This document shows, one piece after another, positions 1,727 through 16,522 of a stretch of 34,954 nucleotides of DNA. The notes below the pieces were generated by a model, which saw only the letters and a list, made by a program, of their open reading frames with translations, was not told where the DNA came from and did not search any database. The position numbers and the translations under genes were made by a program. How positions within the stretch are numbered: position 1 is the stretch's first letter; each line of letters starts with the position of its first letter. Origin of the DNA: Bacteroidia bacterium (GTDB lineage Bacteria; Bacteroidota; Bacteroidia; AKYH767-A; OLB10); assembly GCA_016788185.1 (NCBI GenBank), contig JAEUTF010000184.1, forward strand, positions 1 through 34,954, in the 5' to 3' direction.

Positions 1727-4700
1727 TTGCTGCTTTTTGTCCGTCTGGTGGTCAAGGTGCCACGTGTTCAATCCTGGCTGGTGCGGCAGGTGGCCGGCTG
1801 GCTGACTGATGAGTTGCAGGTGAAGGTGGAAGTGGCTTCGGTGGACATCCGCCTGTTCAGAAGCGTGGTGTTGAACGGTGTCTTCATACAGGACCAGCAG
1901 AAAGACACCCTGATCTGTATTCCGGAACTTGAAGCGTCCATCAGCCAGTTCAGCTATAAGAAGCAAAAACTCACGTTTTCCGCCATTACCTTGAAGGAGG
2001 CAAGAATAGGACTGAAATTTTATAAGGACCCCCGGAAATACAACATAGATTTTCTCATCGATTATTTTTCATCCTCTCAAAAAGACACCACTGCCTCCAA
2101 ACCCTGGGCGGTCAGAATAAGAAAGCTTCAGCTTCAGAATTGTCATTTTACTTATCGTGATTATAAATTCAATGATGCGGATCATGGCATCGATTGGGAA
2201 GACCTCGCTTTGAAAAAACTGAATGTGGTTCTGGAAGATATTGAGCCGGAAGCGGACACCCTTCGGTTATCCGTGAAGCAGCTTTCTTTTGTGGAGAAAA
2301 GCGGTTTCAACGTGATTGACTTTTCCACCAGGGCACGTTTGCAGCCCGGGCTAATGGATTTTGAAGCACTGAAAATCCGCTCGGAAAAAAGCCTAATCCA
2401 GGCCAATGTCCGATTCAATTTTAAGGACATGGAGGATTTTCAATCCTTCGTCACGAATGTGCACTGGAAGGGAGATTTTACGGATTCAAAAGTGGATTTC
2501 GCCGACCTTTCCTTTTTTGCATCCGAACTGGATCATCTCAACAGGAGTATCCTGCTCAAAGGTTCTTTTTCGGGCACGGTGGACCGTTTCAAAGGAAAAG
2601 GGGTGGAACTGCGGTACACGGACGATACCTATTTCAAAGGAAATGTAAACATGACCGGCCTTCCTGATTTTTTTGAAACCTATATGGAACTGAAGGTGGA
2701 TGAACTTGCATTTAATACCCGCGATCTGGAAACAATTCCTGCCTGGCCATTCGACAGCCTGAAGAGGATCGAGTTGCCATCCCAGATGAACAGCCTCGGG
2801 CAAGTTCGCTTCAAAGGCAGTTTTAACGGATTTTACAATGACTTTGTCGCCTACGGCAACATGCATACCGCATTGGGATTCATAAGCTCTGACCTGAATC
2901 TGAAAATCGGTACGGTGGACCGTCAAACGGCTTATAAGGGGAATCTGCGTTTAAATGATTTTGACATCGGAAAATTCTGGGGAATACAGGATATCATGGG
3001 AAAGACCAGCCTGAAGGCGAAACTGGAAGGCAAGGGATTTGATCTGAAAAACATCAATGCGCGCATCGAGGGAGAAATCAACAGCCTTGGTTTTTATAAA
3101 TACAGTTACAGCAATATAAAATTAAACGGACATTTTGCACAACGATTGTTTACCGGCGAACTGGTGATTGCAGACCGGCATCTGGATATGGATTTTGAAG
3201 GAGAAATTGATCTCACGCAAAAGCTGCCCGTATACAATTTCAACTCATCTATCCGCAAGGCCGACCTGACTGCCCTGAACCTGCTGAAAAGAAAGCAGGA
3301 AGCCAGTTTGCACACAGACTTAAGCATCAGCCTGATTGGTAATAACCTTGACAATGCCCAGGGAACCATTCAGGCCGACGACTTTGATTATACCGAAGGA
3401 GACAAGCACATATTGGCGGAGCGTATTTTTCTGGAGTCGCGTATCGGTGATCAGCGGGAACTCAATCTTGTTTCTGATTTCGCGGATGTGCGCATCTCTG
3501 GCGACTACAGTTTTTCGGCGCTGCCGAAAACCCTGAACCATTATTTTTCGACCTACATTCCGGCTTTGCTGGAGCGTGACAGCCGCCGGCCGGTAAGTCA
3601 GCAATTTAGTTTTAAGGCGGAGTTAAAGAAAACAGACGGGGTGCTGGATGTTTTTTTACCACAACTGGGTATTGAAAAGGGAACCGTGGTGGAAGGGACA
3701 ATCAATACGGACATGAATGACATGTCGCTGCGACTCCGGTCAGCGGGGGTGGATATCCGGCCGGTCAGGCTGAAGGATTTCTCCATTGACGGACATACGG
3801 AAGAGGGCAATCTGGTTTTTTCCAGTTCCTTCGGCGGGATTCACCTGAACGACAGCGTCAGGATCAGGGACGCAGGCATCAAGGGGTTTACCAACAGGGA
3901 TACCGCGAGTGTTCTGCTTCAGTTTTCGGGTCAGGACTCAAGTTCGGATATGGCTTCCTGTTACATACAGGCCGGCTTTCTGTCAACGGGCTATACGATG
4001 ATCAAACTCCTGCCGGAGAAGTTGTTGTTACACGGCAGAGCATGGAACCTCAGTCCGTCCAATTACATCCTGGCCGACAGCACCGGTTTGCTGATCCATG
4101 ACTTTAGTTTTTCGAGCGACAGCCAGCGGCTGGACCTGAGCGGAGTCGTGGGGAAGGACACTTCTTCGACTCTGCAGGTGGAGATGGTCAGATTCGACAT
4201 TTCCCAGTTTAATGATTTCCTGAGTGTATACAATGTGAACCTGGGAGGCATCGCCAACGGAAAGGTTTCCATTTCCTCGCTCCTGGGCAAGCCCGCGCTG
4301 GATTCTGACCTGGAGGTCAAACAGCTGACCTGGTACCGCGACAGCCTCGGGGATGCCGAACTGCAAACGGTGTGGGATAGCAGGGAGAACCGGGTGGATG
4401 TGGAAGGCACCGTGACCCGCGGTGGAACCAGGAATATTCATGTCAGCGGTTATTACCTCATCCGGGAAAAAGACGATGAGCTGAATTTTACCGCGCAACT
4501 TCAGAAAACCTATGTACAGTCGTTCAGCCATTACCTCGATGGACTGGTATCAGACATGACCGGCATTGCGAGCGGGGAGTTGTACCTGAGAGGAACGGCG
4601 AATAAACCGGAACTCACCGGAAAAGTGTATCTCCAGAAAATAGGATTTACCATTGATTACCTCAACACCAGTTACAGTTTTTCGACTGAAGTGGAGGTGC

Positions 4701-6145
4701 TGAAAGACCGTTTTGAGTTTAAAAACGTGGTGATGAACGATGTGAAGGGAAATCCGTCCATTGTGAACGGCAGCATACGTCACGAGCACCTGGATGATTT
4801 TTACTTTGACCTCGATATAAAGGCCAACAAGGCCCAGGTTCTCAATACGGGCCCTTCCGACAACGACATTTATTACGGAGTGGCTTATGCCAGCGGCACG
4901 GTTAGTATCAAGGGCTACCTCGACTACATCACGATGAACATCGGGCTGAAGTCAGAGAAGGGTACTAAAATCAATCTTCCGCTCAGTAATCCCGAGGAAG
5001 TCAGTCGCAGCGGTTTTATAAATTTCATCAATGTCAGAGAAAAGCAGGATACCCTCAAGGTGTCGGGACCTGATTTTTCGGGCATTGCCCTCAACATGGA
5101 TTTTGAAGTGACGCAGGATGCCAGCATCTACCTGATTTTTGATTCGAAAATCGGCGACATCATTGAAGGAAAAGGGGATGGCAACATCACCATGCGCATC
5201 AGTCCATCGGAGGATATGCGCATGTTCGGCGGCTTTACCATTGAAGAGGGGAAATACCTCTTCACCATGCAGAATATCATCAACAAGCCCTTCTACATTG
5301 ATAAGGGCGGCTATGTACGGTGGACCGGCGACCCCTACGATGCCACCGTCAACATCAAGGCAATCTATAAATTAAGGGCCGGACTGTATGACCTGTTTCA
5401 GGACAGCAGTTTCAGGAAACTGGTGCCGGTGGAGCTGAACCTGCATCTCACCGAAAAGCTTTTCAATCCCAACATTGCTTTTGATATCAATGTCCTCAAC
5501 ATTGATCCGAACACGGAGAATCAGATCCGGCGGCTGATCAATACCGAGGAAGAGAAATACCGGCAGGCGGTATCACTCCTGGTGATGCGGCGCTTTACTT
5601 CTCCCAGTGAAATTTCAAACCGCTCCATCGTGAATTCCACCAACGTGGTGGGGGTAAACGCCTATGAGATGCTGAGTAACCAACTCAGCAACTGGGCTTC
5701 ACAGATCAGCAACCAGGTGAACGTGGGTGTCAATTACCGCCCTGGGGATGCGCTGACCAGCGAAGAACTGGAAGTGGCGCTTTCCACCAGCCTCTTCAAC
5801 GATCGGGTGACGATTGATGGAAACGTGGGAGTAGCCAATTCCACCACGCCCAATGCCAACCAGAACACCTCCAACCTGATCGGTGATTTTACCGTGGAAG
5901 TAAAAGCGAACAAAGACGGACGTGTCCGTTTAAAAGCATTTAACCGTTCCAACAACAACTCCCTGATCAACAACATCAACTCGCCGTATACGCAGGGGGT
6001 AGGTGTTTTTTACAGCCAGGAGTTCAATACCTTCGCCGAGCTGACTCAAAAACTGCGTGATCTTTTCCGGAAAAAGTCAAAAAGGAAATCCAATTTGCCG
6101 GATGTGAAAACTAGTCCGGATGTCATCAAGGAAAATCAACAGTAA
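1727..6145 (+). CDS. tamB: Translocation/assembly module TamB-like protein (DUF490 family)
   Basis: This is a very large (at least 1472 aa) AsmA/TamB-type protein, expected to be anchored in the inner membrane and to span the periplasm as a long beta-rich bridge. In proteobacteria TamB works with an Omp85 partner in outer-membrane biogenesis and lipid transport. Repeated amphipathic beta strands fill the middle. The last 400 or so residues resemble the TamB C-terminal domain, followed by a basic, Asn-rich tail. The start given is the TTG at 1727, a conservative choice. The open frame extends back to 1646 and encodes a basic N-terminus and a full hydrophobic helix (from 1679, RRLRNISFALLGFALLLLF) that a TTG start would cut in half. 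True initiation is therefore probably at a non-standard codon such as ATA 1664 or ATC 1667. The gene is divergent from tsaD. Confidence 0.9.
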   Translation: MLLFVRLVVKVPRVQSWLVRQVAGWLTDELQVKVEVASVDIRLFRSVVLNGVFIQDQQKDTLICIPELEASISQFSYKKQKLTFSAITLKEARIGLKFYKDPRKYNIDFLIDYFSSSQKDTTASKPWAVRIRKLQLQNCHFTYRDYKFNDADHGIDWEDLALKKLNVVLEDIEPEADTLRLSVKQLSFVEKSGFNVIDFSTRARLQPGLMDFEALKIRSEKSLIQANVRFNFKDMEDFQSFVTNVHWKGDFTDSKVDFADLSFFASELDHLNRSILLKGSFSGTVDRFKGKGVELRYTDDTYFKGNVNMTGLPDFFETYMELKVDELAFNTRDLETIPAWPFDSLKRIELPSQMNSLGQVRFKGSFNGFYNDFVAYGNMHTALGFISSDLNLKIGTVDRQTAYKGNLRLNDFDIGKFWGIQDIMGKTSLKAKLEGKGFDLKNINARIEGEINSLGFYKYSYSNIKLNGHFAQRLFTGELVIADRHLDMDFEGEIDLTQKLPVYNFNSSIRKADLTALNLLKRKQEASLHTDLSISLIGNNLDNAQGTIQADDFDYTEGDKHILAERIFLESRIGDQRELNLVSDFADVRISGDYSFSALPKTLNHYFSTYIPALLERDSRRPVSQQFSFKAELKKTDGVLDVFLPQLGIEKGTVVEGTINTDMNDMSLRLRSAGVDIRPVRLKDFSIDGHTEEGNLVFSSSFGGIHLNDSVRIRDAGIKGFTNRDTASVLLQFSGQDSSSDMASCYIQAGFLSTGYTMIKLLPEKLLLHGRAWNLSPSNYILADSTGLLIHDFSFSSDSQRLDLSGVVGKDTSSTLQVEMVRFDISQFNDFLSVYNVNLGGIANGKVSISSLLGKPALDSDLEVKQLTWYRDSLGDAELQTVWDSRENRVDVEGTVTRGGTRNIHVSGYYLIREKDDELNFTAQLQKTYVQSFSHYLDGLVSDMTGIASGELYLRGTANKPELTGKVYLQKIGFTIDYLNTSYSFSTEVEVLKDRFEFKNVVMNDVKGNPSIVNGSIRHEHLDDFYFDLDIKANKAQVLNTGPSDNDIYYGVAYASGTVSIKGYLDYITMNIGLKSEKGTKINLPLSNPEEVSRSGFINFINVREKQDTLKVSGPDFSGIALNMDFEVTQDASIYLIFDSKIGDIIEGKGDGNITMRISPSEDMRMFGGFTIEEGKYLFTMQNIINKPFYIDKGGYVRWTGDPYDATVNIKAIYKLRAGLYDLFQDSSFRKLVPVELNLHLTEKLFNPNIAFDINVLNIDPNTENQIRRLINTEEEKYRQAVSLLVMRRFTSPSEISNRSIVNSTNVVGVNAYEMLSNQLSNWASQISNQVNVGVNYRPGDALTSEELEVALSTSLFNDRVTIDGNVGVANSTTPNANQNTSNLIGDFTVEVKANKDGRVRLKAFNRSNNNSLINNINSPYTQGVGVFYSQEFNTFAELTQKLRDLFRKKSKRKSNLPDVKTSPDVIKENQQ

Positions 6146-6203
6146 TCGGTTCAGGTGTTCACTTGAAAAGCAGGCGTTTGGAGGGTGACCTGAATTTTTT
6201 TTG

Positions 6204-6277
<74 letters not shown>

Positions 6278-6304
6278 ATTTTACTCGAAAACCAAACGGG
6301 GACG

Positions 6305-6312
6305 CAAAGGTA
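6305..6312 (-). promoter_or_regulatory. -7 promoter box of the CAT-anticodon tRNA
   Basis: The minus strand reads TACCTTTG, an exact TAnnTTTG match identical to the tsaD box. It lies 27 bp upstream of the mature tRNA 5' end, leaving room for a short 5' precursor removed by RNase P. No strong -33 TTTG is visible. Confidence 0.65.
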
Positions 6313-6393
6313 TCAAAAAATGATATTTTCCTCAGCCCCTTCTAGATAATAATTATTACATTGTTTTTCAATGGTTTAATAATATTCAACAGG

Positions 6394-6425
6394 GTTGTAT
6401 TTTCGGAATCTTCCCCGTTACTTTG
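6394..6425 (+). promoter_or_regulatory. Possible promoter of the first secreted paralogue
   Basis: A GTTG at 6394-6397 is followed after 20 bp by TTACTTTG at 6418-6425, which matches TAnnTTTG except for one base. Spacing fits the Bacteroidota -33/-7 arrangement. The predicted leader to the ATG at 6566 is about 135 nt, long for this window. The remaining intergenic DNA here is AT-rich and contains a short palindrome at 6347-6358. Confidence 0.35.
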
Positions 6426-6565
6426 GGTAAAGCATCCTGCAGATGCGTAAAAACGTTCACCCTGAATAGCGCAGGGTTGGCCAATCTCCCGGTTGAAACT
6501 TCAATTGTTTTTTATAAATTACGCAATGGCGGGGTATAGTCTATCCACCCCAGAAATTATCCACG

Positions 6566-9500
6566 ATGAAAAAAAGTTACCTGCTCCGATCCGGCCTCTT
6601 CCTGTTCCTGTTGACGGCTGTTTGCCACACCAACGTACAGGCCCAGTTGAATTACAGTTTTCAGCAAACCACGGAAACCTATCAGGCGCTGAGCGGAGGA
6701 ACCATCCTGGGTACCGCGAATGGCGTCGCGCTTTCGCTGGATTCTGCACTCGACAGCAGGGTGTACACGCTTCCCCCAAACGCCATACCCTTCCCTTTTT
6801 TCTTTAACGGATCCGGCTATACCACGTTGTTCGTTTCTTCAAACGGATTTATCACCTTCGGGATTGCACCTTCTACCACGAATGTCAATCCCCTGGGATC
6901 CACCGCCACCTACAGCGGAGCGGTGGTCGGTTTCGGGAGAGATCTGATCGGTAATTTTAAGAATGTGGTTCCGGGTGACCCGGATACCATCGCTCAGATT
7001 CGTTATGGCGTTACCGGTAGTGCCCCCAACCGCAGGTTTGTGGTGGAGTGGAACAATTTCCGACCGGGCGGGGGAGGCTCCAGCCTGGTACCCAACATGA
7101 GTTTCCAGATCCGGCTCACCGAGGGTTCGGGCGTTTGTGAAGTGGCTTACGGAGCCTTTACCGGTGCCACCTGGGTGAACAGTACGGCGCAGGTGGGTAT
7201 CAGAGGCGCCACCAATACCGCCTATTTTAACCGCCTGCTGGCCAGCGGCCAGCCCTGGACCAATACATCGCAGGGCATCGCGGCGACCTCTTCCTGTGCC
7301 TTTACCTCTTCTACGCTGCCTGCATCGGGTCTTGTCTTCAGGTTCATGGCCAACTGCCCCACGCCTTCCAACCTGTCCATTCTGGATCTTGTGGCCAACT
7401 CTGTAAAATTGCGCTGGAATTCAGGCTCTGTAGCCGGCACCTTTCCGGGCTCCGGTTACATCGTGGAGTGGGGCCCAAGCGGCTTTACGCCCGGTACGGG
7501 TACGATCGTCAATACCAATGATACCTTCCTGATCCTTTCCGGACTAAGTTCGGGAACCCCCTACCAATATTACGTTCGCCGGAATTGTTCATCCAGCGGA
7601 AATGGCATCAGTGTAAATGCAGGGCCGAAATCCTTTACCCCCGGACTTCCTGCCGAAGATTGTGCATCCGCACAACTGATTTCTGTGGCGGCAAATCTGG
7701 CTTCCTGCAGTTCCACGGCGGTCAGCAGCGGTTCATCGCAAAACGGACCCAATGCCTTGTGTTCGGACGGATTGGGCGGCAATTTTCCAGATGATGACAA
7801 ATGGTTTAAGTTCGTTGCACCCGGAAACAGCAAAAAAATAATCATTACCACTTCTGCCGGAACCGTCAACGACTGGGTGATGGAAGTCTGGAACAATTGC
7901 CCTGCCAGCGGCGGGCTCAGTATAAAATGCAGCGATGATGTGAACGGCGGAATGCCTGAAATTTCCTTGTGTCAGAATGAATACATTCCCGGACATACGT
8001 ATTATATTCGTTTGTGGACGTATAGCCTCAGCGGGAACGGCACCATGAGTTTTTGTGCCTATGAAGCTTCGCCTTGTCCGGTTGCTCCCAGCTATGACAA
8101 TTGTATTGCCGCCGATTCATTCCTGATCAATCCTGTGCTGAGTTGTCCGGGTAATGAACAAATTTTCTCCACGCTTTTTGCCACCCCATCGGTTGGTGGT
8201 GACAATACAGCCGACGCCCCCACCTGTGACGGTTCCACGACCCTGAACGATGTTTGGCTACGCTTCAATACCGGATCAACGGGAACTTTTACCGTGACCC
8301 TGAATCCGCTAACCGCCACCGATCTGAGAGCGCAGGTGGTATTTGAATGCGGAAGCGGAGGGTATGAAATTGCCTGTTGGAATCCGGCGGCAGGAACCCA
8401 TACGCTCACCGGACTGAACCCCTCCGCCAATTACGCCATCCGGGTATGGTCGGCGGTCGGACAAAGCGGAACCTTCAGTGTCTGCGCACAGGATGCCTGT
8501 GATGATGCGACCGCCACGTTATCCGGTTCATCCACCATTTGCACCACCGGTACCGCACAACTGCGTGTTGATCTTACCGGACTACCCCCCTGGAACGTTA
8601 CGTATACGGATGGAGTCTCCAATTACAATTTTACTACCTCCACCACCCCGTATTTTATTTCTGTTTCTCCTCAGGTCACCACCTTTTACAACCTCGTATC
8701 CGTGAGCAGCCCGATTTGTTCCGGAACAGGGGATGGCGTAGCCAGCGTCAATGTCGTGCCACCACCGGTAGTTGATCTGGCCGCATTTACCAGTCCGGTC
8801 TGTTCCAATCAGATTTTTACGTTATCGGGTGGAACCCCTGTAGGCGGTACCTATTCCGGTATAGGTGTTACCGGAAATCAGTTCAATGCCTCAGTAGGAG
8901 GACTCGGGCCACATTTAATCACCTACACCTATGGGATCGGGAACGGGTGCCAGCGATCGGATACCGCTTCCATTCAGGTCATTCAGGCGCCTTCGGTTAC
9001 GTATTTCAATCCTGCCGTCGCCCCGGTGGGTTCAACAATTAAGATTGGTGGCAGCCACTTGAATACGGTGAACCAGGTGCGGTTTAATTTAACAAACGCA
9101 TTGGTTTATAATATCTTAAGTTCTGACACCATCACGGCTGTCGTTCCGCCCGGAGCAAATACCGGTTACATCACGGTGTTTACCAGCAACGGATGTTCAG
9201 CTCAGAGTCCGACTACTTTCGGAGTGGGTAATCCTCCTGGCGTCACACTCAACCTGAAGGCCTATGTGGAGGGTTATTATGCTTCCGGAGGACTAATGAA
9301 TGCGGTAGTTGATCCGATTAATCTTCCCACAAAATCGGATACCATGACCGTTGAACTGCACAGCCCGCTGGCACCTTATGCGCTGGTAGCGACCCGGAAA
9401 GCACTGTCGAATACAAATGGAACCTTTACCGTGACCTTCCCTGCGGCGCAAACCAATAATTCCTACTACATCGTTTTAAAATCAAGGAATACAGTTGAAA

Positions 9501-9658
9501 CCTGGAGTAAGGTACCGGTCTTGCTGGTATCGGGTAATAATTCATACGATTTTTCAGTGCCGGGTACGTCCATGCTGAGGCCACATAGCCAGTCTGGTGG
9601 CAGTAATTTGCAAAACGGTTCTGTACATGAATTTATTAAACCGGAACATCCTGAATAA
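6566..9658 (+). CDS. Secreted multidomain adhesin-like protein, paralogue A (no recognisable T9SS tail)
   Basis: The 1030-residue protein begins with a clear Sec signal peptide (MKKS, then a hydrophobic core ending in NVQAQ, cleavage near residue 26). Approximate order: a beta-sandwich-like N-terminal domain (27-260), a fibronectin type III module (265-350), two pre-peptidase C-terminal-like modules rich in Cys and Asp (358-495 and 504-640), Ig/PKD-like modules (643-800), an IPT/TIG module (808-890) and a conserved beta domain (893-1013). In Bacteroidota proteins that last domain, as I recall it, is usually followed by a dockerin-like or sorting segment. Here the protein stops after a polar tail of about 25 residues with no YPNP-type T9SS signal. 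Role unknown; surface binding or matrix function is likely. It is a tandem paralogue of the next gene, 156 bp away. Confidence 0.88.
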   Translation: MKKSYLLRSGLFLFLLTAVCHTNVQAQLNYSFQQTTETYQALSGGTILGTANGVALSLDSALDSRVYTLPPNAIPFPFFFNGSGYTTLFVSSNGFITFGIAPSTTNVNPLGSTATYSGAVVGFGRDLIGNFKNVVPGDPDTIAQIRYGVTGSAPNRRFVVEWNNFRPGGGGSSLVPNMSFQIRLTEGSGVCEVAYGAFTGATWVNSTAQVGIRGATNTAYFNRLLASGQPWTNTSQGIAATSSCAFTSSTLPASGLVFRFMANCPTPSNLSILDLVANSVKLRWNSGSVAGTFPGSGYIVEWGPSGFTPGTGTIVNTNDTFLILSGLSSGTPYQYYVRRNCSSSGNGISVNAGPKSFTPGLPAEDCASAQLISVAANLASCSSTAVSSGSSQNGPNALCSDGLGGNFPDDDKWFKFVAPGNSKKIIITTSAGTVNDWVMEVWNNCPASGGLSIKCSDDVNGGMPEISLCQNEYIPGHTYYIRLWTYSLSGNGTMSFCAYEASPCPVAPSYDNCIAADSFLINPVLSCPGNEQIFSTLFATPSVGGDNTADAPTCDGSTTLNDVWLRFNTGSTGTFTVTLNPLTATDLRAQVVFECGSGGYEIACWNPAAGTHTLTGLNPSANYAIRVWSAVGQSGTFSVCAQDACDDATATLSGSSTICTTGTAQLRVDLTGLPPWNVTYTDGVSNYNFTTSTTPYFISVSPQVTTFYNLVSVSSPICSGTGDGVASVNVVPPPVVDLAAFTSPVCSNQIFTLSGGTPVGGTYSGIGVTGNQFNASVGGLGPHLITYTYGIGNGCQRSDTASIQVIQAPSVTYFNPAVAPVGSTIKIGGSHLNTVNQVRFNLTNALVYNILSSDTITAVVPPGANTGYITVFTSNGCSAQSPTTFGVGNPPGVTLNLKAYVEGYYASGGLMNAVVDPINLPTKSDTMTVELHSPLAPYALVATRKALSNTNGTFTVTFPAAQTNNSYYIVLKSRNTVETWSKVPVLLVSGNNSYDFSVPGTSMLRPHSQSGGSNLQNGSVHEFIKPEHPE

Positions 9659-9725
9659 ATCAGGCTTTTTCACCCTTTATTTCCAGTAGTTGACGTCCTA
9701 AGGATCGAAATTTACCTCTGTTTAC

Positions 9726-9755
9726 TTTGAAAACTGGGGTAGATTCTTATCTTTG
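9726..9755 (+). promoter_or_regulatory. Promoter of paralogue B (-33 TTTG and -7 TATCTTTG)
   Basis: TTTG at 9726-9729 and TATCTTTG at 9748-9755 are separated by 18 bp, the best complete Bacteroidota promoter in the window. The predicted leader to the ATG at 9815 is about 55 nt. It implies that the second paralogue can be transcribed independently of the first. Confidence 0.7.
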
Positions 9756-9814
9756 TTAGGAAGCCATGTTAATCGTGGTAATCAAACACATCTTTGAACA
9801 AAACACACCCCAAA

Positions 9815-12800
9815 ATGATTGTCAAGTTCTACCCTTTAACCTGGCGGTTTCTCACCGCTTGCTGCCTGCTCTTGCTGGCAGCGAAATCCAATGCACAGGT
9901 CAGTGCATATAATTTCACCCAGATGACCGGCACCTATACCGCCATCACCGGAGGAACGGTGATTGCCACCGCAAGTGGTACGTCAGGGGCGGCTTCGCTG
10001 GATGACGTTATTTATGATCTTCCGGCCGGAACCATACCTTTTAGTTTCCAGTTCAACAGCACGGCCTATACCGGATGTAAAGTGAGTACGAACGGGTTTA
10101 TCACCTTTGGCGCCACCGCCCCCTCTGCCAATGGTTCAACAACAGGATACACCCCGATATCGGCTACCACCGCTTATAGCGGTGCGGCCTCGGCGTTAGG
10201 GAGAAACCTGAATGCCTACTTTTTTTCGGGCGTACCGGCACAAACCGGTGAATTGCGGTACCAGACCCTCGGAACCACCCCGAACCGGACCTTTGTGATT
10301 CAGTGGAAAAATTTCAAAACCTTTAACACTTCCGGCGCCACCTTCGGGCCGGTACTTAATTTCCAGGTCAGGCTGAAAGAAACATCGAACGCCATCGAGT
10401 TTGTGTACAATTGCAGCGGGGCCTTTACCAGCAGTCTGGCACAGGTTGGGTTGCGCGGGGCCACCAATGGATTCCCCTCCAACGTGAACAACCGTTCTGT
10501 AGCCAACGGCGTGAATACCTGGATCAACTCCGTGGCCGGCACCTCCAACGCCGCCACCTGCGAATTTTCTTCCTCGCTGATGCCTCCCTCCGGTCTGACC
10601 TACAGTTTTGCTCCTTCAGCCTGTCCGAGTCCGCAGAATGCAGCGGCGACCAACATCACGCAGAATTCTGCACAGCTTACCTGGACTTCCCCCGGTGGCA
10701 ACGGTACCTTCACCATTGAATATGGCTTATCCGGATTTTCTCCCGGTAACGGAACTACGCAAACCAATGTGAGTTCCGGTGTGGTGATAAACGGCCTGGT
10801 GTCCACCACAAATTATCAATATTATATCCGGCAGGAATGCGGGGTGAACGGCAACAGCAGCCTGGTGGGACCCATCGATTTCAGCACCGGCGGCCCCGGC
10901 GAAGATTGTGCGACGGCCTTGTTGGTGAATGTAGCCAATAACCTGGGTGCCTGTGCTTTCACCACCGTGAACTCGGGGGTCTCCTCGAACGGGCCCAATG
11001 CCATTTGTTCCGACTTTAACGGAAACGGTGCCAATGATGACAAATGGTACCGCTTCGTAGCACCCAGCGGAGGGAATCAGCTGGTGATCACCACAACAGC
11101 AGGCACAGTAAACGACTGGGTCATGGAAGTCTGGAACGGTTGTCCCGGCAGCGGCCTGATGCTGAAATGCGCCGATGATGTGAACGGCACCATGCCGGAG
11201 ATTACCCTCTGCCAGAACGAATATACCGCCGGCCAGACGTATTACATCCGGATATGGACCTACAGCACCGCGGCCATTGGAACAGCGAATTTATGTGTGT
11301 ACAAAACCACGGCCTGTCCACTGCCTCCTGTCAACGATGAGTGTATTTCTGCCACACGGCTGACCGTAAATTCACCATTAGCCTGTCCGGCTTCAGCCAC
11401 GTCTCATTCAAACGCCTATGCCACCCCGAATACGGATGGCGCTACCTGTGATGCGGGTACCAAGCGCGATGTGTGGTTTGTATTCAATACCGGGAATCTT
11501 GGAAACATTGTGATGACCATTTCTCCCGGTACCGCTACGACCCTGAAAGCGCAGTTGCTGTTTGAGTGCGGCGGATTTGAGATCTCCTGCTACTCACCCG
11601 CCAACGGTACCTATACCTTTACGGGTTTGAATCCTCAGGCCGACTATGTGATCCGTGTGTGGTCTGATTCCGGCACCGCCGGCACCTTCAACATCTGCCT
11701 CGCCGATCAGTGTGCGAACCCGACTGCTACCTTCGGTCCAAACCAGGCCGTGTGTACAGGGCAGACGGCCAGTTTGCCGGTCAGCTTTACCGGCGTACCG
11801 CCCTATACTTTTACCTATAAAAACAATACGACCAATCAGAATTTCCCGGTCACTACCAGTTTAAATCCATACAACATTCAGTTGTCGCCATCCGCCACTA
11901 CCACGTATACCCTGCTCAGCATGAACGATGCCGCCTGCAGCGGAACGGCGAGTGGTACGGCCAGTGTGACGGTGGTTTCACCCCAGGCGGTGAGTCTGTC
12001 GGCTTTCCCTTCCACCTGCACGAACAGTCCTCTCGTTACCTTAACCCAGGGCTCGCCGGCGGGAGGTGTTTACAGCGGGGTAGGGGTCTCCGGAGTTAAA
12101 TTCAATCCGGCGGTGGGTACACAAACCATCACCTACACCGTTACGTTCGCGCCCGGTTGTGTGGACAGCGCTTCGCAGGTATTTACGGTACATCCGCTAC
12201 CCAATGTCAGTCTCAATTCACTGGGCAACGTTTGCTTAACGGCTGCGCCCTTCCCGTTAACCGGAGGTGTTCCTACCGGAGGAACCTATTCAGGTCCGGG
12301 GGTGAGCAACAATACTTTCAATCCGGCTTCAGCAGGACTTGGAAACAAGATTATCACCTATTCCTTTACCAGTACCGCGGGATGTACCAGTTCAGACACC
12401 GCTCTGATTACCGTCATCACCTGTTCAGGATGCGCGAACCCGCCGGTAGCCAATGCAGGACCTGACAGGATTTCCTGTGAGGGTTCGCAGGTTAGCCTGG
12501 CCGGATCCATCTCAGGAGGCGCCAATTCAGCATCCTGGGTAGGGAACGGCACCGGTTTCTTCACCCCGAATAATACAACGCTTACGGCTACGTATGTACC
12601 CTCTTCAACCGATGTACAATTGGGTCAGATCATGCTGATCCTTACGACCAATGATCCGGATGGCGGAGGCCCTTGCGTACCGGACAAGGATACAATGATG
12701 GTGTTCTTCCAGGACTCCATTGCCGCCAATAGTATTACCGGAACCACGGGCGTATGCCGTCCGGTAAACGGAGTGACCTATTCGGTAGCCTCACAAGCCG

Positions 12801-14074
12801 GAGCCAGCTATAACTGGACCGTACCCACGAATGTTGTACTGGCCAGTGGTCAGGGTACAGCCGCCATCACCGCGAACTGGCCTTCCAATGGTCAGGCCGG
12901 GAATGTTTGTGTAACGATGAGCAATGGCTGCAATTCAAAGCAACTGTGCAAGAATGTGAAATTGAGGACCACTGCGGCCGGCAAACCTACGTCCATAAAA
13001 GGACAGACCTCTGCCTGCAGAAATGAAGTGTTTACCTATTCCTGCTCAAGGGTCAGTTCGGCCGACTTCTATGTCTGGACTCCGCCTGTAGGTGCCACCA
13101 TCAACGGTTCAGGCGCTTCTTTCCAGACGGTCGACACCTTTGTGGTGGTCACCTTCGGAGCGGCCTATACCGGTGATACCTTGCGTGTGAAAGGCGGGAA
13201 TTGCGCGGGTTTCAGTGCGGAAACCAAGTTGCGTATCAACAGAAGAACCACGGTACCCGGAACCCCCTCGGCGATCAGCGGCGAAGGCAACGGGGTATGC
13301 GCCAGTACCCAGGTGTATTCCATTAAACCTACCAACGGAGCGAGCAGTTATCGCTGGAGAACGGCTGTTGCCGGAGCTCTGATCAATGGACTGCCATCTC
13401 CGCTCATCACAAACGACACCCTGGTTACCGTTACCTGGCCTTCCGGTTTTGCATCGGGTACACTGTTTGTAGCCGCCAGAAACGCATGCGGAACAGGTAC
13501 TGAAAAATCCAAAACCATCAAGGGCGTCCCCGGAGTGTCCAGCGGAATCAATGGCAACGACACGGTTTGTGCCGGTACTTCGCAGGTCTATTCAATAGCT
13601 CCTTTGTACGGTGCCACTTCCTATACCTGGACGGTTCCATCTTCGGTAACCATTCAAAGCGGACAAGGTACCACTTCCATCACGGTGAAATTCAATGCAG
13701 CTACCGGTACGAGAGCGATAAAAGTGAAAGGTGTAAATGCCTGCGGCAACGGTTCCAACAAAACCCTGAATGTACAGGCCATCGCTTGTCCGAGAAATGG
13801 TGATTTAAGCATCCGCAATGCATTCGGTATAGATGCGTATCCGAACCCCGCCAGTGATCTGCTGAATATACAATTTGAATCAGCCTCCGACGAAAACTAC
13901 CGGATCATGTTGTATGATCTGACCGGCCGAATGGTGCAGGAGCAAATGATAACGGCGGTAGAAGGAGTGAATACCCTTCAGTGGAGTCTTTCCGGATATC
14001 CTGCCGGCGTGTACCTGCTCGCGGTACAGGGTCGTGAAGGTCTGAGTCAGGTGAAGATAGTGGTAGAAAAATAA
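9815..14074 (+). CDS. Secreted multidomain adhesin-like protein, paralogue B, with T9SS type A sorting domain
   Basis: I choose the ATG at 9815 (1419 aa) over an in-frame TTG at 9794, because it begins an ordinary signal peptide (MIVKFYPL, hydrophobic CCLLLLAA core, cleavage after NAQ near residue 28). The first 870 or so residues repeat the architecture of the upstream paralogue: N-terminal beta domain, fibronectin type III (about 269-350), two pre-peptidase-C-terminal-like modules (360-495, 500-630) and Cys-rich beta modules with GGTYSG motifs. Four tandem PKD-like modules follow (about 973-1324). The last 80 residues, from YPNPASD at 1342 through GVYLLAV to KIVVEK, are a T9SS type A sorting domain that directs export across the outer membrane and attachment to the surface. 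Ligand unknown; adhesion or matrix binding is an inference. Confidence 0.92.
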   Translation: MIVKFYPLTWRFLTACCLLLLAAKSNAQVSAYNFTQMTGTYTAITGGTVIATASGTSGAASLDDVIYDLPAGTIPFSFQFNSTAYTGCKVSTNGFITFGATAPSANGSTTGYTPISATTAYSGAASALGRNLNAYFFSGVPAQTGELRYQTLGTTPNRTFVIQWKNFKTFNTSGATFGPVLNFQVRLKETSNAIEFVYNCSGAFTSSLAQVGLRGATNGFPSNVNNRSVANGVNTWINSVAGTSNAATCEFSSSLMPPSGLTYSFAPSACPSPQNAAATNITQNSAQLTWTSPGGNGTFTIEYGLSGFSPGNGTTQTNVSSGVVINGLVSTTNYQYYIRQECGVNGNSSLVGPIDFSTGGPGEDCATALLVNVANNLGACAFTTVNSGVSSNGPNAICSDFNGNGANDDKWYRFVAPSGGNQLVITTTAGTVNDWVMEVWNGCPGSGLMLKCADDVNGTMPEITLCQNEYTAGQTYYIRIWTYSTAAIGTANLCVYKTTACPLPPVNDECISATRLTVNSPLACPASATSHSNAYATPNTDGATCDAGTKRDVWFVFNTGNLGNIVMTISPGTATTLKAQLLFECGGFEISCYSPANGTYTFTGLNPQADYVIRVWSDSGTAGTFNICLADQCANPTATFGPNQAVCTGQTASLPVSFTGVPPYTFTYKNNTTNQNFPVTTSLNPYNIQLSPSATTTYTLLSMNDAACSGTASGTASVTVVSPQAVSLSAFPSTCTNSPLVTLTQGSPAGGVYSGVGVSGVKFNPAVGTQTITYTVTFAPGCVDSASQVFTVHPLPNVSLNSLGNVCLTAAPFPLTGGVPTGGTYSGPGVSNNTFNPASAGLGNKIITYSFTSTAGCTSSDTALITVITCSGCANPPVANAGPDRISCEGSQVSLAGSISGGANSASWVGNGTGFFTPNNTTLTATYVPSSTDVQLGQIMLILTTNDPDGGGPCVPDKDTMMVFFQDSIAANSITGTTGVCRPVNGVTYSVASQAGASYNWTVPTNVVLASGQGTAAITANWPSNGQAGNVCVTMSNGCNSKQLCKNVKLRTTAAGKPTSIKGQTSACRNEVFTYSCSRVSSADFYVWTPPVGATINGSGASFQTVDTFVVVTFGAAYTGDTLRVKGGNCAGFSAETKLRINRRTTVPGTPSAISGEGNGVCASTQVYSIKPTNGASSYRWRTAVAGALINGLPSPLITNDTLVTVTWPSGFASGTLFVAARNACGTGTEKSKTIKGVPGVSSGINGNDTVCAGTSQVYSIAPLYGATSYTWTVPSSVTIQSGQGTTSITVKFNAATGTRAIKVKGVNACGNGSNKTLNVQAIACPRNGDLSIRNAFGIDAYPNPASDLLNIQFESASDENYRIMLYDLTGRMVQEQMITAVEGVNTLQWSLSGYPAGVYLLAVQGREGLSQVKIVVEK
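12730..13788 (+). repeat. Four tandem PKD-like modules in paralogue B
   Basis: Four protein-level repeats of about 85-95 residues, each with a Cys near the start (VCRPVNG, ACRNEVF, VCASTQVYS, VCAGTSQVYS), a Y-x-W core (YNWTVP, YVWTPP, YRWRTA, YTWTVP) and a later Cys (CNSK, CAGFS, CGTGTE, CGNGS). They have diverged at DNA level, so they are old duplications. Confidence 0.7.
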
Positions 14075-14093: not shown

Positions 14094-14124
14094 GAGAGCC
14101 CGGTTTTGCCGGGCTCTCTTTGTT
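14094..14124 (+). terminator. Rho-independent terminator between convergent genes
   Basis: A perfect 10-bp stem, GAGAGCCCGG (14094-14103) with CCGGGCTCTC (14109-14118), encloses loop TTTTG and is followed by TTTGTT. It ends the plus-strand paralogue B. On the minus strand the same hairpin is followed by CTATTTT, so it probably also terminates the GH31 gene, whose stop codon it overlaps. Confidence 0.9.
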
Positions 14125-16522
14125 ATGATGAAACTTTCAGGGTGATTTCCTTAAAGTTCGCATTGGTCCTGAACTTGATCACTCCCAGATGCGAATAACG
14201 TTTGGTGATGCGGTGGGTTTTTCCGTCAACTTCAAATTCGGTGATGTTTTCCGGAACGCCATGCAGGACGATCTTGTAGTGGGGATAGCTGGGCTCGAAA
14301 TTACCGCTTACCGTCTGGAAAATTTTAAACGTACCTTTCTTTTGCGTCACAACAAACTTCTTAATATTGAACTGTCCGTTACGGTATCCGTAGTAATCGC
14401 CTGCGTCTTCATAAAGATGACTGGTCTGAACCGTTTTGGTATAATAAATGTGCAGGGTAAGTTCCGTAACCGGGATTTCACCTACATACTGCATTTTTGG
14501 GTAATTGGCCAAGACCGATCCTTCTTTTACAAAGAGCGGCATTTTATCCAGCGGTGCTTCCGCATTGATTTCCTTGCCTCCGTTTTCCAGGTCATCGTTC
14601 CAGAAATTATACCAGCGCCCTTTGGGTAAATACAGGAGCCGTGTATCTGCACCGGGAAGATTCACCGGACATACCATGATTTTATCCCCGAACATGTACT
14701 GGTCGGTATGGTACAAGGATTCTGTGTCCGATTGGTCGGTCATCACCAATGGGCGGATCATCGGAATTCCGTATTGTGAATTTTGCCAGAATGTGGTGTA
14801 GATATAGGGAAGCAACTGGTAGCGCAGATGGATGTATTTTTTGGCAATGAACTCGTATTTCTGTCCATAGGACCATGGCTCCTGTGGCTCTGCCCCCGGA
14901 TCATTGCCTGCTGAATGCGTTCGGCAAAAGGGATGGAAAACGGCCATCTGCAACCAACGAACATACAGTTCACCGTCCGGATTGCCGATGAATCCGCCGA
15001 TGTCTGAACCGGCAAATGAGATCCCCGACATACAGAGACGCTGAACCTGCATGTTCGCAATCCACATGTGCTCCCAGGTAGCGATGTTATCGCCGGTCCA
15101 TACGGAACTGAAGCGTTGTGCGCCCGAATAGCAGCTGCGTGTAATCACAAAGGGACGGTTGGGATAGAGGAATTTACGGATGCCGTCAAAAGTCGCCCGG
15201 GCCATCTGCATCCCGTATACATTGTGCGCCTTGCGGTGGCTGCAGGGATCACCGTCGTAATCGTGTCGTACATCTTCAGGAAAGGTTCCGATTTCGAAGA
15301 CGGCAGGTTCATTCATGTCGTTCCAGACGCCACGAACGCCCATACGGATCATTTCTTCAAACAATCCGCTCCACCACCGCCGTGCATCAGCGTTGGTGAA
15401 GTCGGGGAAATTACAGGCTCCCGGCCATACATCACCTTCCATCAACTCACCATCGGCCCGCTTACAAAAGAATCCGTTTTTCACCCCTTCCTGATACACC
15501 CAGTATTCGGGATCGATTTTTATCCCGGGATCAATGATGACAATGGTTTTGAATCCTTTTTCCGCCAGATCGCCCATGAGCTTTGCCGGCTTGGGAAAAC
15601 CTTCTTTGCTCCAGGTAAAACAGCGAAAGCCTTCCATGTAATCAATATCCAGGTAAATGGCATCGCAGGGTATCCCTCTTTCACGGAACTCACTGGCAAT
15701 TTCCCTGACCTGCTTTTCAGGATAGTAACTCCATTTGCACTGATGGTAACCCAGTGCCCACAGTGGTGGCATCTCCGGTGTTCCTGTCATTCCCGCATAC
15801 TGCTCTACCACGTTCATCAGTTCGGGTCCATAAATGAAATAATAATTCATTTCACCGCCGCGCGCCCAGAAACTGCAAACATCAAATTGCTCTTTACCGA
15901 AATCAAAAATGGTCCGGAAGGTGTTGTCGAAGAAAACGCCATAGGCGATATCATGGTGCAATCCCATGTAAAAGGGGATGTTCTTGTAAATGGGATCCTG
16001 ATCTTTTTTAAACCCATAGGTATCGGCACCGTAGTTTTCAATTCGCTTGCCGCGGATGTTAAGTTCCATGGGTTTGTCACCCATGCCAAAAAAACATTCG
16101 CCATCCTGGATCTTTTTCGAACAATAGTTGATCTTACCGCCCTTTTTGATATAGTGTTGCCAGTGAAAGCCCAGTTCATCTTCACTGATCACATTGTATT
16201 TTCTGTCGAGGATGGTGATCTTCAGCGTTTTTTTGTAAATCTGAATCACCAGGTGATCGGTCATCAGATCAAATTTGTGACGGTCTTCGTATACGGAAAG
16301 GTTGGCGGGCTGAATGCTGAAGTTCTCCGCTATGGCATACGAAAAGTCGCGCTGAAATTTTCCATCGGGAGCATAACGGAAACGAACGATTTTATCCGAA
16401 AATATTTTTACCTCCAGAATGGTATCGGCCGTGTTAAAATAAAAGACCTGTCCTTCCTGTTGATAGGAGGTGACATCGGCAGGGAAATACTTGACCGAGT
16501 ATTTATCTTTTTTAATTTCCAT
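14123..16522 (-). CDS. Glycoside hydrolase family 31 alpha-glucosidase
   Basis: The 799-residue protein matches GH31 alpha-glucosidases and alpha-xylosidases in length and order: an N-terminal beta domain (about 20-240), a catalytic TIM barrel (about 250-600) and C-terminal beta domains. The nucleophile motif WNDMNEP is at 400-406 (Asp402). The GDN motif at 477-479 supplies the likely acid/base Asp478. The barrel also has LDIDYM and the GSDIGGF substrate-site motif. It hydrolyses terminal alpha-linked glucose or xylose with retention of configuration; substrate specificity cannot be read by eye. There is no signal peptide, so it is probably cytoplasmic and acts on imported oligosaccharides or storage glucan. 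No SusC/SusD pair or other glycosidase is nearby. The start is the ATG at 16522, with a near-consensus promoter upstream. Confidence 0.95.
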   Translation of the reverse strand: MEIKKDKYSVKYFPADVTSYQQEGQVFYFNTADTILEVKIFSDKIVRFRYAPDGKFQRDFSYAIAENFSIQPANLSVYEDRHKFDLMTDHLVIQIYKKTLKITILDRKYNVISEDELGFHWQHYIKKGGKINYCSKKIQDGECFFGMGDKPMELNIRGKRIENYGADTYGFKKDQDPIYKNIPFYMGLHHDIAYGVFFDNTFRTIFDFGKEQFDVCSFWARGGEMNYYFIYGPELMNVVEQYAGMTGTPEMPPLWALGYHQCKWSYYPEKQVREIASEFRERGIPCDAIYLDIDYMEGFRCFTWSKEGFPKPAKLMGDLAEKGFKTIVIIDPGIKIDPEYWVYQEGVKNGFFCKRADGELMEGDVWPGACNFPDFTNADARRWWSGLFEEMIRMGVRGVWNDMNEPAVFEIGTFPEDVRHDYDGDPCSHRKAHNVYGMQMARATFDGIRKFLYPNRPFVITRSCYSGAQRFSSVWTGDNIATWEHMWIANMQVQRLCMSGISFAGSDIGGFIGNPDGELYVRWLQMAVFHPFCRTHSAGNDPGAEPQEPWSYGQKYEFIAKKYIHLRYQLLPYIYTTFWQNSQYGIPMIRPLVMTDQSDTESLYHTDQYMFGDKIMVCPVNLPGADTRLLYLPKGRWYNFWNDDLENGGKEINAEAPLDKMPLFVKEGSVLANYPKMQYVGEIPVTELTLHIYYTKTVQTSHLYEDAGDYYGYRNGQFNIKKFVVTQKKGTFKIFQTVSGNFEPSYPHYKIVLHGVPENITEFEVDGKTHRITKRYSHLGVIKFRTNANFKEITLKVSS

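Follow-up and report, generated by a model that had tools for sequence, protein, structure and literature searches.

Why should two neighbouring and homologous surface proteins of one bacterium end in different ways? The question is raised by a 34,954-nucleotide stretch of DNA from Bacteroidia bacterium (contig JAEUTF010000184.1, assembly GCA_016788185.1), hereafter the window, which is the entire contig G000:C211 of a genome (G000, the own genome) of 3.23 Mb in 282 contigs. It encodes the tandem paralogues A and B, of which B closes with a type A C-terminal domain (CTD) of the type IX secretion system (T9SS) and A does not. Our analysis showed that the ending of A is a recurrent conserved module of Bacteroidota surface proteins, whose longer form resembles a dyad of X-module and dockerin, and that the unequal ends are maintained and apparently old, not the outcome of damage. 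We give an even chance to the reading that this end-module is an alternative C-terminal targeting module, probably linked to the T9SS, and it may be a route to the cell surface that has so far escaped recognition. The relevant features are the following.

6566..9658, + strand: paralogue A, 1030 amino acids (aa) from an ATG, with signal peptide, part shared with B and short-form X-like C-terminal domain
6566..6643, + strand: likely signal peptide of A, residues 1-26 (ending NVQA before Q), of the signal peptidase I type, by eye without a lipobox; read from the sequence
6653..9199, + strand: part of A alignable with B, residues 30-878, with an N-terminal beta region, fn3, two GBD_T9SS_assoc-like modules (below cut-off) and further modules
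8993..9241, + strand: IPT/TIG-like module of A, by eye, without a Pfam match
9242..9559, + strand: X-like C-terminal domain of A, residues 893-998, ETWSK variant, predicted beta-sandwich
9560..9655, + strand: polar tail of A, residues 999-1030, of low model confidence, with LR near its start and an IKPEHPE end kept in relatives
9794..14074, + strand: paralogue B, 1426 aa as a TTG open reading frame (ORF); likely start ATG 9815, opening a signal peptide
13838..14065, + strand: T9SS type A sorting domain of B, residues 1349-1424

Unequal ends of paralogues A and B

Aligned over 879 columns, A and B show 44% identity, far above chance, and the motifs VNDWVMEVWN and CQNEY are common to both, in agreement with the gene coordinates and the shared architecture given in an earlier reading of the letters without database searches (the sequence-only reading). 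That reading had B end in four PKD-like modules and a type A tail, and profile searches bore this out with four PKD_6 stretches, two GBD_T9SS_assoc (PF23759) stretches and TIGR04183/PF18962 at residues 1349-1424 (E 1.4e-12 for TIGR04183). In A, fn3 is the sole match above the curated cut-offs of Pfam and NCBIfam. The modules that had been called pre-peptidase-like are instead GBD_T9SS_assoc-like, above cut-off in B and below it in A (E 0.00066 and 0.00082), and the IPT/TIG module assigned to A resembles one by eye and is unconfirmed, with no Pfam match even when searched alone. Past the shared part, A continues with this TIG-like stretch and the X-like domain, and B with its type A tail behind four PKD_6 modules. 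That A lacks such a tail was rightly noted: Pfam and NCBIfam searches gave no TIGR04183/PF18962 match at its C-terminus, and residues 893-1030 had no reported match in Pfam (E<=1) or in NCBIfam (E<=5, with a search program that discards most matches above about E 0.1).

Among 42 genomes of the order, nine match the body of A (E<=1e-40); seven of them, representing seven species in two genera, keep A and B in tandem, and the remaining two have a single copy near a contig end. All seven A orthologues end in the same short form, after which comes a polar tail carrying [LQ]R close to its beginning; the residue after the motif TWS is K, once R, and a (K/R)PEHPE end closes the A proteins of the own genus (4/4) and none of the other genus (0/3). 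A type A tail is found on the B orthologues of five of the seven species, which are all those with a readable end, that of G415 running off the contig stretch and that of G426 having a broken frame. In the latter (locus L121 6519-8471, the same as in L241) the frame breaks after about 600 residues, through an assembly error or decay.

A tree of these 14 proteins, with a single distant row as outgroup, separates A from B by one branch (support 99/99; 200 of 200 bootstrap trees). Its outgroup branch is very long, and we place no trust in its root. Provided that the root does not lie inside A, A with its short end predates the split of the two genera, and the unequal ends appear to be older than that split.

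A C-terminal domain in two forms

The X-like domain, about 105 residues long, is present in ten copies in the own genome and is the last domain in all ten; seven copies have short endings, stopping 1-33 residues past a YDFS-like motif, and the other three continue for about 85 dockerin-like residues. None of the at least 145 type A tails of this genome (150 of 222 candidates were scored, 145 of them above cut-off) follows any of the ten. Endings are also bimodal in 79 loci elsewhere, the best of 462 relatives from named genome contigs, with 30 short, 46 dockerin-like, two internal and one cut by a contig end, the domain thus being terminal, with or without a dockerin, in 76 of the 78 uncut loci. 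Behind the two internal copies (L100 and L102, from 6001) stand IPT-like repeats and another domain. The residue after TWS goes with the form, being K in 28/30 short forms (with R and A once each) and A in 43/46 dockerin forms (three K; Fisher P 3e-15, relatedness uncorrected). These relatives were retrieved with a single peptide pattern centred on TWS, a choice that makes the motif invariant and biases the set towards the close family. After removal of identical domain sequences, 129 distinct ones were counted, 81 with a long end (41-130 residues past the domain), 42 short, four other and two cut.

In the 46-locus, 129-sequence and exchange counts, "dockerin" stands for a long end by length, dockerin-like by reading and tested against Pfam in 35 members. 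In these 35 (alignment A4, from the 46 dockerin-form loci; alignment A3 combines the window with 62 of the 79 loci), Dockerin_1 (PF00404) matches the tail 26 times at E<=0.1, with a best value of 1.1e-8. The statement in the sequence-only reading that a dockerin-like segment follows this beta domain in other Bacteroidota proteins was correct, and holds for 46 of the 79 loci.

The two forms bear directly on the possibility, also raised there, that A is truncated, i.e. that it lost a type A or a dockerin tail by mutation. More distant relatives from other orders across the phylum have long ends, dockerin-like by eye, in all 28 cases read, which speaks for such a loss. Against it stand the short form in 7/7 A orthologues with its form-specific K (once R) after TWS, the commonness of short endings in the own genome (7/10), the tail end conserved in all four own-genus species, and the stretch behind the stop of A, where no hidden dockerin segment, frameshift or remnant was seen in six frames (9200-9960). 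Truncation of A was rejected on these grounds and we consider decay hardly credible.

The AlphaFold models have a mean predicted local distance difference test score of 94.9 for a dockerin form (L106) and of 84.6 for the domain and tail of A, the tail reaching about 50-70. The dockerin-form model aligns with eight entries of type II X-module-dockerin dyads from clostridial scaffoldins (2b59, 3kcp, 4fl4, 5g5d, 5m0y, 4wi0, 4u3s and 5k39) at Z 10.5-12.4, over 132-147 residues with a root-mean-square deviation of 2.9-3.5 Å, the next structural row having Z 6.1; its best Foldseek match is 5g5d (E 8e-5). The dockerin form shares predicted fold, domain order and the Dockerin_1 profile with these dyads, but is only 15-17% identical to them and belongs to Bacteroidota hosts with a T9SS, where a cohesin partner is uncertain; A, unlike them, has no dockerin and stops 32 residues past the domain. 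Sequence searches of solved structures gave no convincing relative of the domain (best E 0.13); those with the dockerin form gave matches that fall on the dockerin part, EF-hand proteins being among the weaker ones. The domain before the dockerin tail has no consistent Pfam or NCBIfam match across 63 members. We call the domain of A X-like because it is homologous to the dockerin form, not because of a fold match of its own.

This likeness suggests another role, docking and not sorting, in which the dockerin form would bind cohesin-like proteins anchored by type A tails and the short form would be a spacer or remnant. The Dockerin_1 matches and the predicted fold are in line with it, and so are candidate partners, of which the own genome encodes one with a signal peptide, a cohesin-like domain and a type A tail.

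L191 / G000:C249:1577-1960 and 2006-2218: cohesin-like protein (272-aa frame)

Relatives of such cohesin-like proteins (A6) occur in 19 of the 42 genomes of the order, and most of the 17 read end in a type A-like tail by eye. Judged by the matches listed, A6 is present in 10/14 genomes with a full dockerin form and in 9/28 others (Fisher P 0.02, relatedness uncorrected), a fifteenth genome, G416, having a dockerin fragment only. For Cloacimonadota, one study infers dockerin enzymes together with a CTD-bearing cohesin scaffoldin (PMC8542988), and another describes two cellulolytic Bacteroidetes without cellulosome-associated dockerins (PMC6247017). However, the A6 profile found no such protein in G394, G398, G401 and G402, all of them with more than one dockerin copy, and among them the genome richest in domain copies (G402, 16); in these four, PF00963 matched only in G398 and below cut-off. 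A6 is also present in nine genomes without a listed full dockerin form, and docking leaves unexplained both the short form, the majority in the own genome, and the crossing of the outer membrane. We regard it as an unlikely role of the module. A cohesin partner does not appear to be a requirement for the dockerin form, the association being weak and A6 not having been found in 4/14 genomes.

Exchange with type A tails and association with the T9SS

Homologous bodies carry different ends in a number of proteins. Among 245 ORFs, bodies that align to <=20 residues from both modules over >=120 columns with >=30% identity yield 18 pairs of a type A with a short end, 13 of a type A with a dockerin end and 54 of a dockerin with a short end. 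Thirty of the 31 pairs with a type A member fall within a single body family, which comprises 13 ORFs (six short, four dockerin and three type A), at least two of these ORFs being likely repeats of one gene. Both proteins of a second tandem pair of the own genome belong to this family with all three ends, a 1295-aa dockerin form and a 1505-aa type A form that are 62% identical over 1154 columns.

L198 (G000:C20) 3715-8232 and 8498-12385, both - strand: C20 tandem pair with unequal ends, type A vs X-dockerin-like

Since this pair adds to A and B, unequal-ended tandem paralogues are found in two body families of the own genome. Because the module occupies the position of the type A CTD and exchanges with it in one family, it most likely does a CTD's job.

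By a crude rule, signal peptides open 59/61 complete domain-bearing ORFs, 37/38 type A ORFs and 64/160 other ORFs, with repeats not removed. Overlap of the locus sets means that these counts, those of exchange and those of our home-made type A profile include repeats, identical proteins occurring in L099 and L242, L121 and L241, L101 and L243, L149 and L244, and L119 and L245. The Sec signal peptide of A comes from reading its sequence, and A is an intact and probably Sec-exported protein. In a sample of 392 genomes of the phylum, the T9SS translocon protein SprA is encoded in 319 and the X-like domain in 50, all of them among the 319 and none among the 73 without SprA (hypergeometric 1.5e-5, relatedness uncorrected); a narrower domain profile gave 24/24 domain genomes with SprA, and the own genome encodes it as well. 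Flavobacterium sp. CYK-55 (L177) is one of the natural carriers of the domain.

An alternative targeting module is the reading best suited to the place of the domain in the protein, its exchange with type A tails, the signal peptides and its restriction, within the sample, to SprA-bearing genomes. It draws also on the conservation of the domain, its mostly terminal place, the two forms with their form-specific residue, the exchange seen in a single body family and in one pair outside it, the maintained inequality of A and B, and the X-dockerin-like fold of the dockerin form. Another sorting signal, one of the options named in the sequence-only reading, is thus the best fit to the three ends at the same place. 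In the mechanism that we propose, the C-terminus of A carries a conserved module, a predicted beta-sandwich, in place of a type A tail; this module is the first half of the X-module-dockerin-like dyad of the longer form, A being a short form without the dockerin; and it would decide exit from the periplasm via the T9SS and destination at the surface, as do type A (PorV) and type B (PorP/SprF) CTDs. We infer export, T9SS dependence and a targeting role for the X-like domain on these grounds.

A different outcome of the same exchange would be retention in the periplasm of one paralogue, with the other going to the surface. The missing T9SS tail of A could be taken this way, and kept unequal ends could mean unequal places, but the body of A has the same kinds of T9SS-associated modules as that of B, and a purely periplasmic module would not need to be confined to genomes with SprA; such retention seems to us quite unlikely. 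Nor do we favour the idea that the domain serves in ligand binding or assembly, on surface proteins that owe their export to some other signal not yet recognised. The internal copies show that the domain can sit inside a protein, and beta-sandwich folds are common among binding modules, yet it is terminal in nearly all uncut loci and, in one body family, takes the place of the type A tail to within 20 residues, which makes this improbable.

Several observations weigh against an alternative targeting module. Like the type A CTD (TIGR04183/PF18962), whose fold is an Ig-like 3+4 beta-sandwich, the X-like domain is C-terminal in signal-peptide proteins, a predicted beta-sandwich of similar size and exchanged in one body family. 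The two differ in sequence: hhalign comparison with type A CTDs gave no relation (probability 0.3% and 1.2%), and our home-made type A profile had a single weak match to a domain-bearing ORF, lying within the domain (L070, E 2e-4). For the short-form model no structural match stands out: Foldseek gave none at E<=0.001 (best 6yoa, E 1.5e-3), and the mirolase CTD (8qb1) comes fifth for it at Z 6.6 over 74 residues and 2.6 Å, tied with and indistinguishable from unrelated folds; with the dockerin form 8qb1 gives Z 4.7. NCBIfam contains models for type B (TIGR04131) and type C (ChiA) CTDs, and the X-like domain differs from both in that no T9SS sorting model was among the NCBIfam matches of 63 and 35 domain members. 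A and B differ by several modules, beyond the last domain, and are no clean end swap because B carries four PKD_6 modules before its tail, and the domain is internal in 2/79 loci, both of one protein family. Of the 73 genomes without SprA, 20 are listed, 14 of them from one family (f19), so that the tests are few in independent terms and the co-occurrence is weaker than its P value. Finally, no shuttle gene was noticed by eye among the recurrent neighbours of domain genes, and no PorP/SprF-like gene adjoining them, in a survey of the first 70 residues of the 25 largest ORF clusters made without profiles and leaving out type A-tailed ORFs.

Neighbours of the domain-bearing genes include a short secreted-looking ORF of about 177 aa (L110 2644-3174 and seven more loci). 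The A-B pair itself has the same setting in L099 (G427) as in the window, with a TamB-like gene upstream and a GH31-like gene downstream.

1727..6145, + strand: TamB-family protein, upstream of A; similar protein upstream of A in L099
6203-6277, - strand: tRNA-Met gene, between the TamB gene and A
14123..16522, - strand: GH31 glycoside hydrolase, downstream of B; similar protein downstream of B in L099
16657-20412, - strand: BNR-repeat protein of 1251 aa with a type A T9SS tail, adjoining the GH31 gene

Implications for surface targeting in Bacteroidota

Sequence classes of C-terminal T9SS signals beyond type A exist, according to two papers (PMC10202324; PMC12618676), which makes a further class plausible, and the X-like domain may have a fair chance of being a new one. 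More tentative is the proposal that it could be a fourth class of T9SS C-terminal signal, fold-related to cellulosomal X-modules and existing in two forms, and that duplicated surface proteins would receive different classes for different places; we think this possible, if doubtful. In the open-access literature, to the extent of its available text, we found no description of the domain as a T9SS signal. CTDs have been argued to contain both secretion and targeting signals, with PorV serving type A and PorP/SprF type B (PMC12618676, Commun Biol 2025), and a review of 2023 raises the question whether the families of CTDs differ in function or in where their proteins finally reside (PMC10202324).

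That question could be put to tandem paralogues found in nature whose C-terminal modules differ, and the C20 pair is the foremost of these ready-made tests. If the module is indeed a T9SS signal, cargo lists drawn from TIGR04183 and TIGR04131 alone would miss a class of proteins, ten of them in the own genome, and the missed class would reach the 50 of 392 sampled genomes of the phylum that bear the domain.

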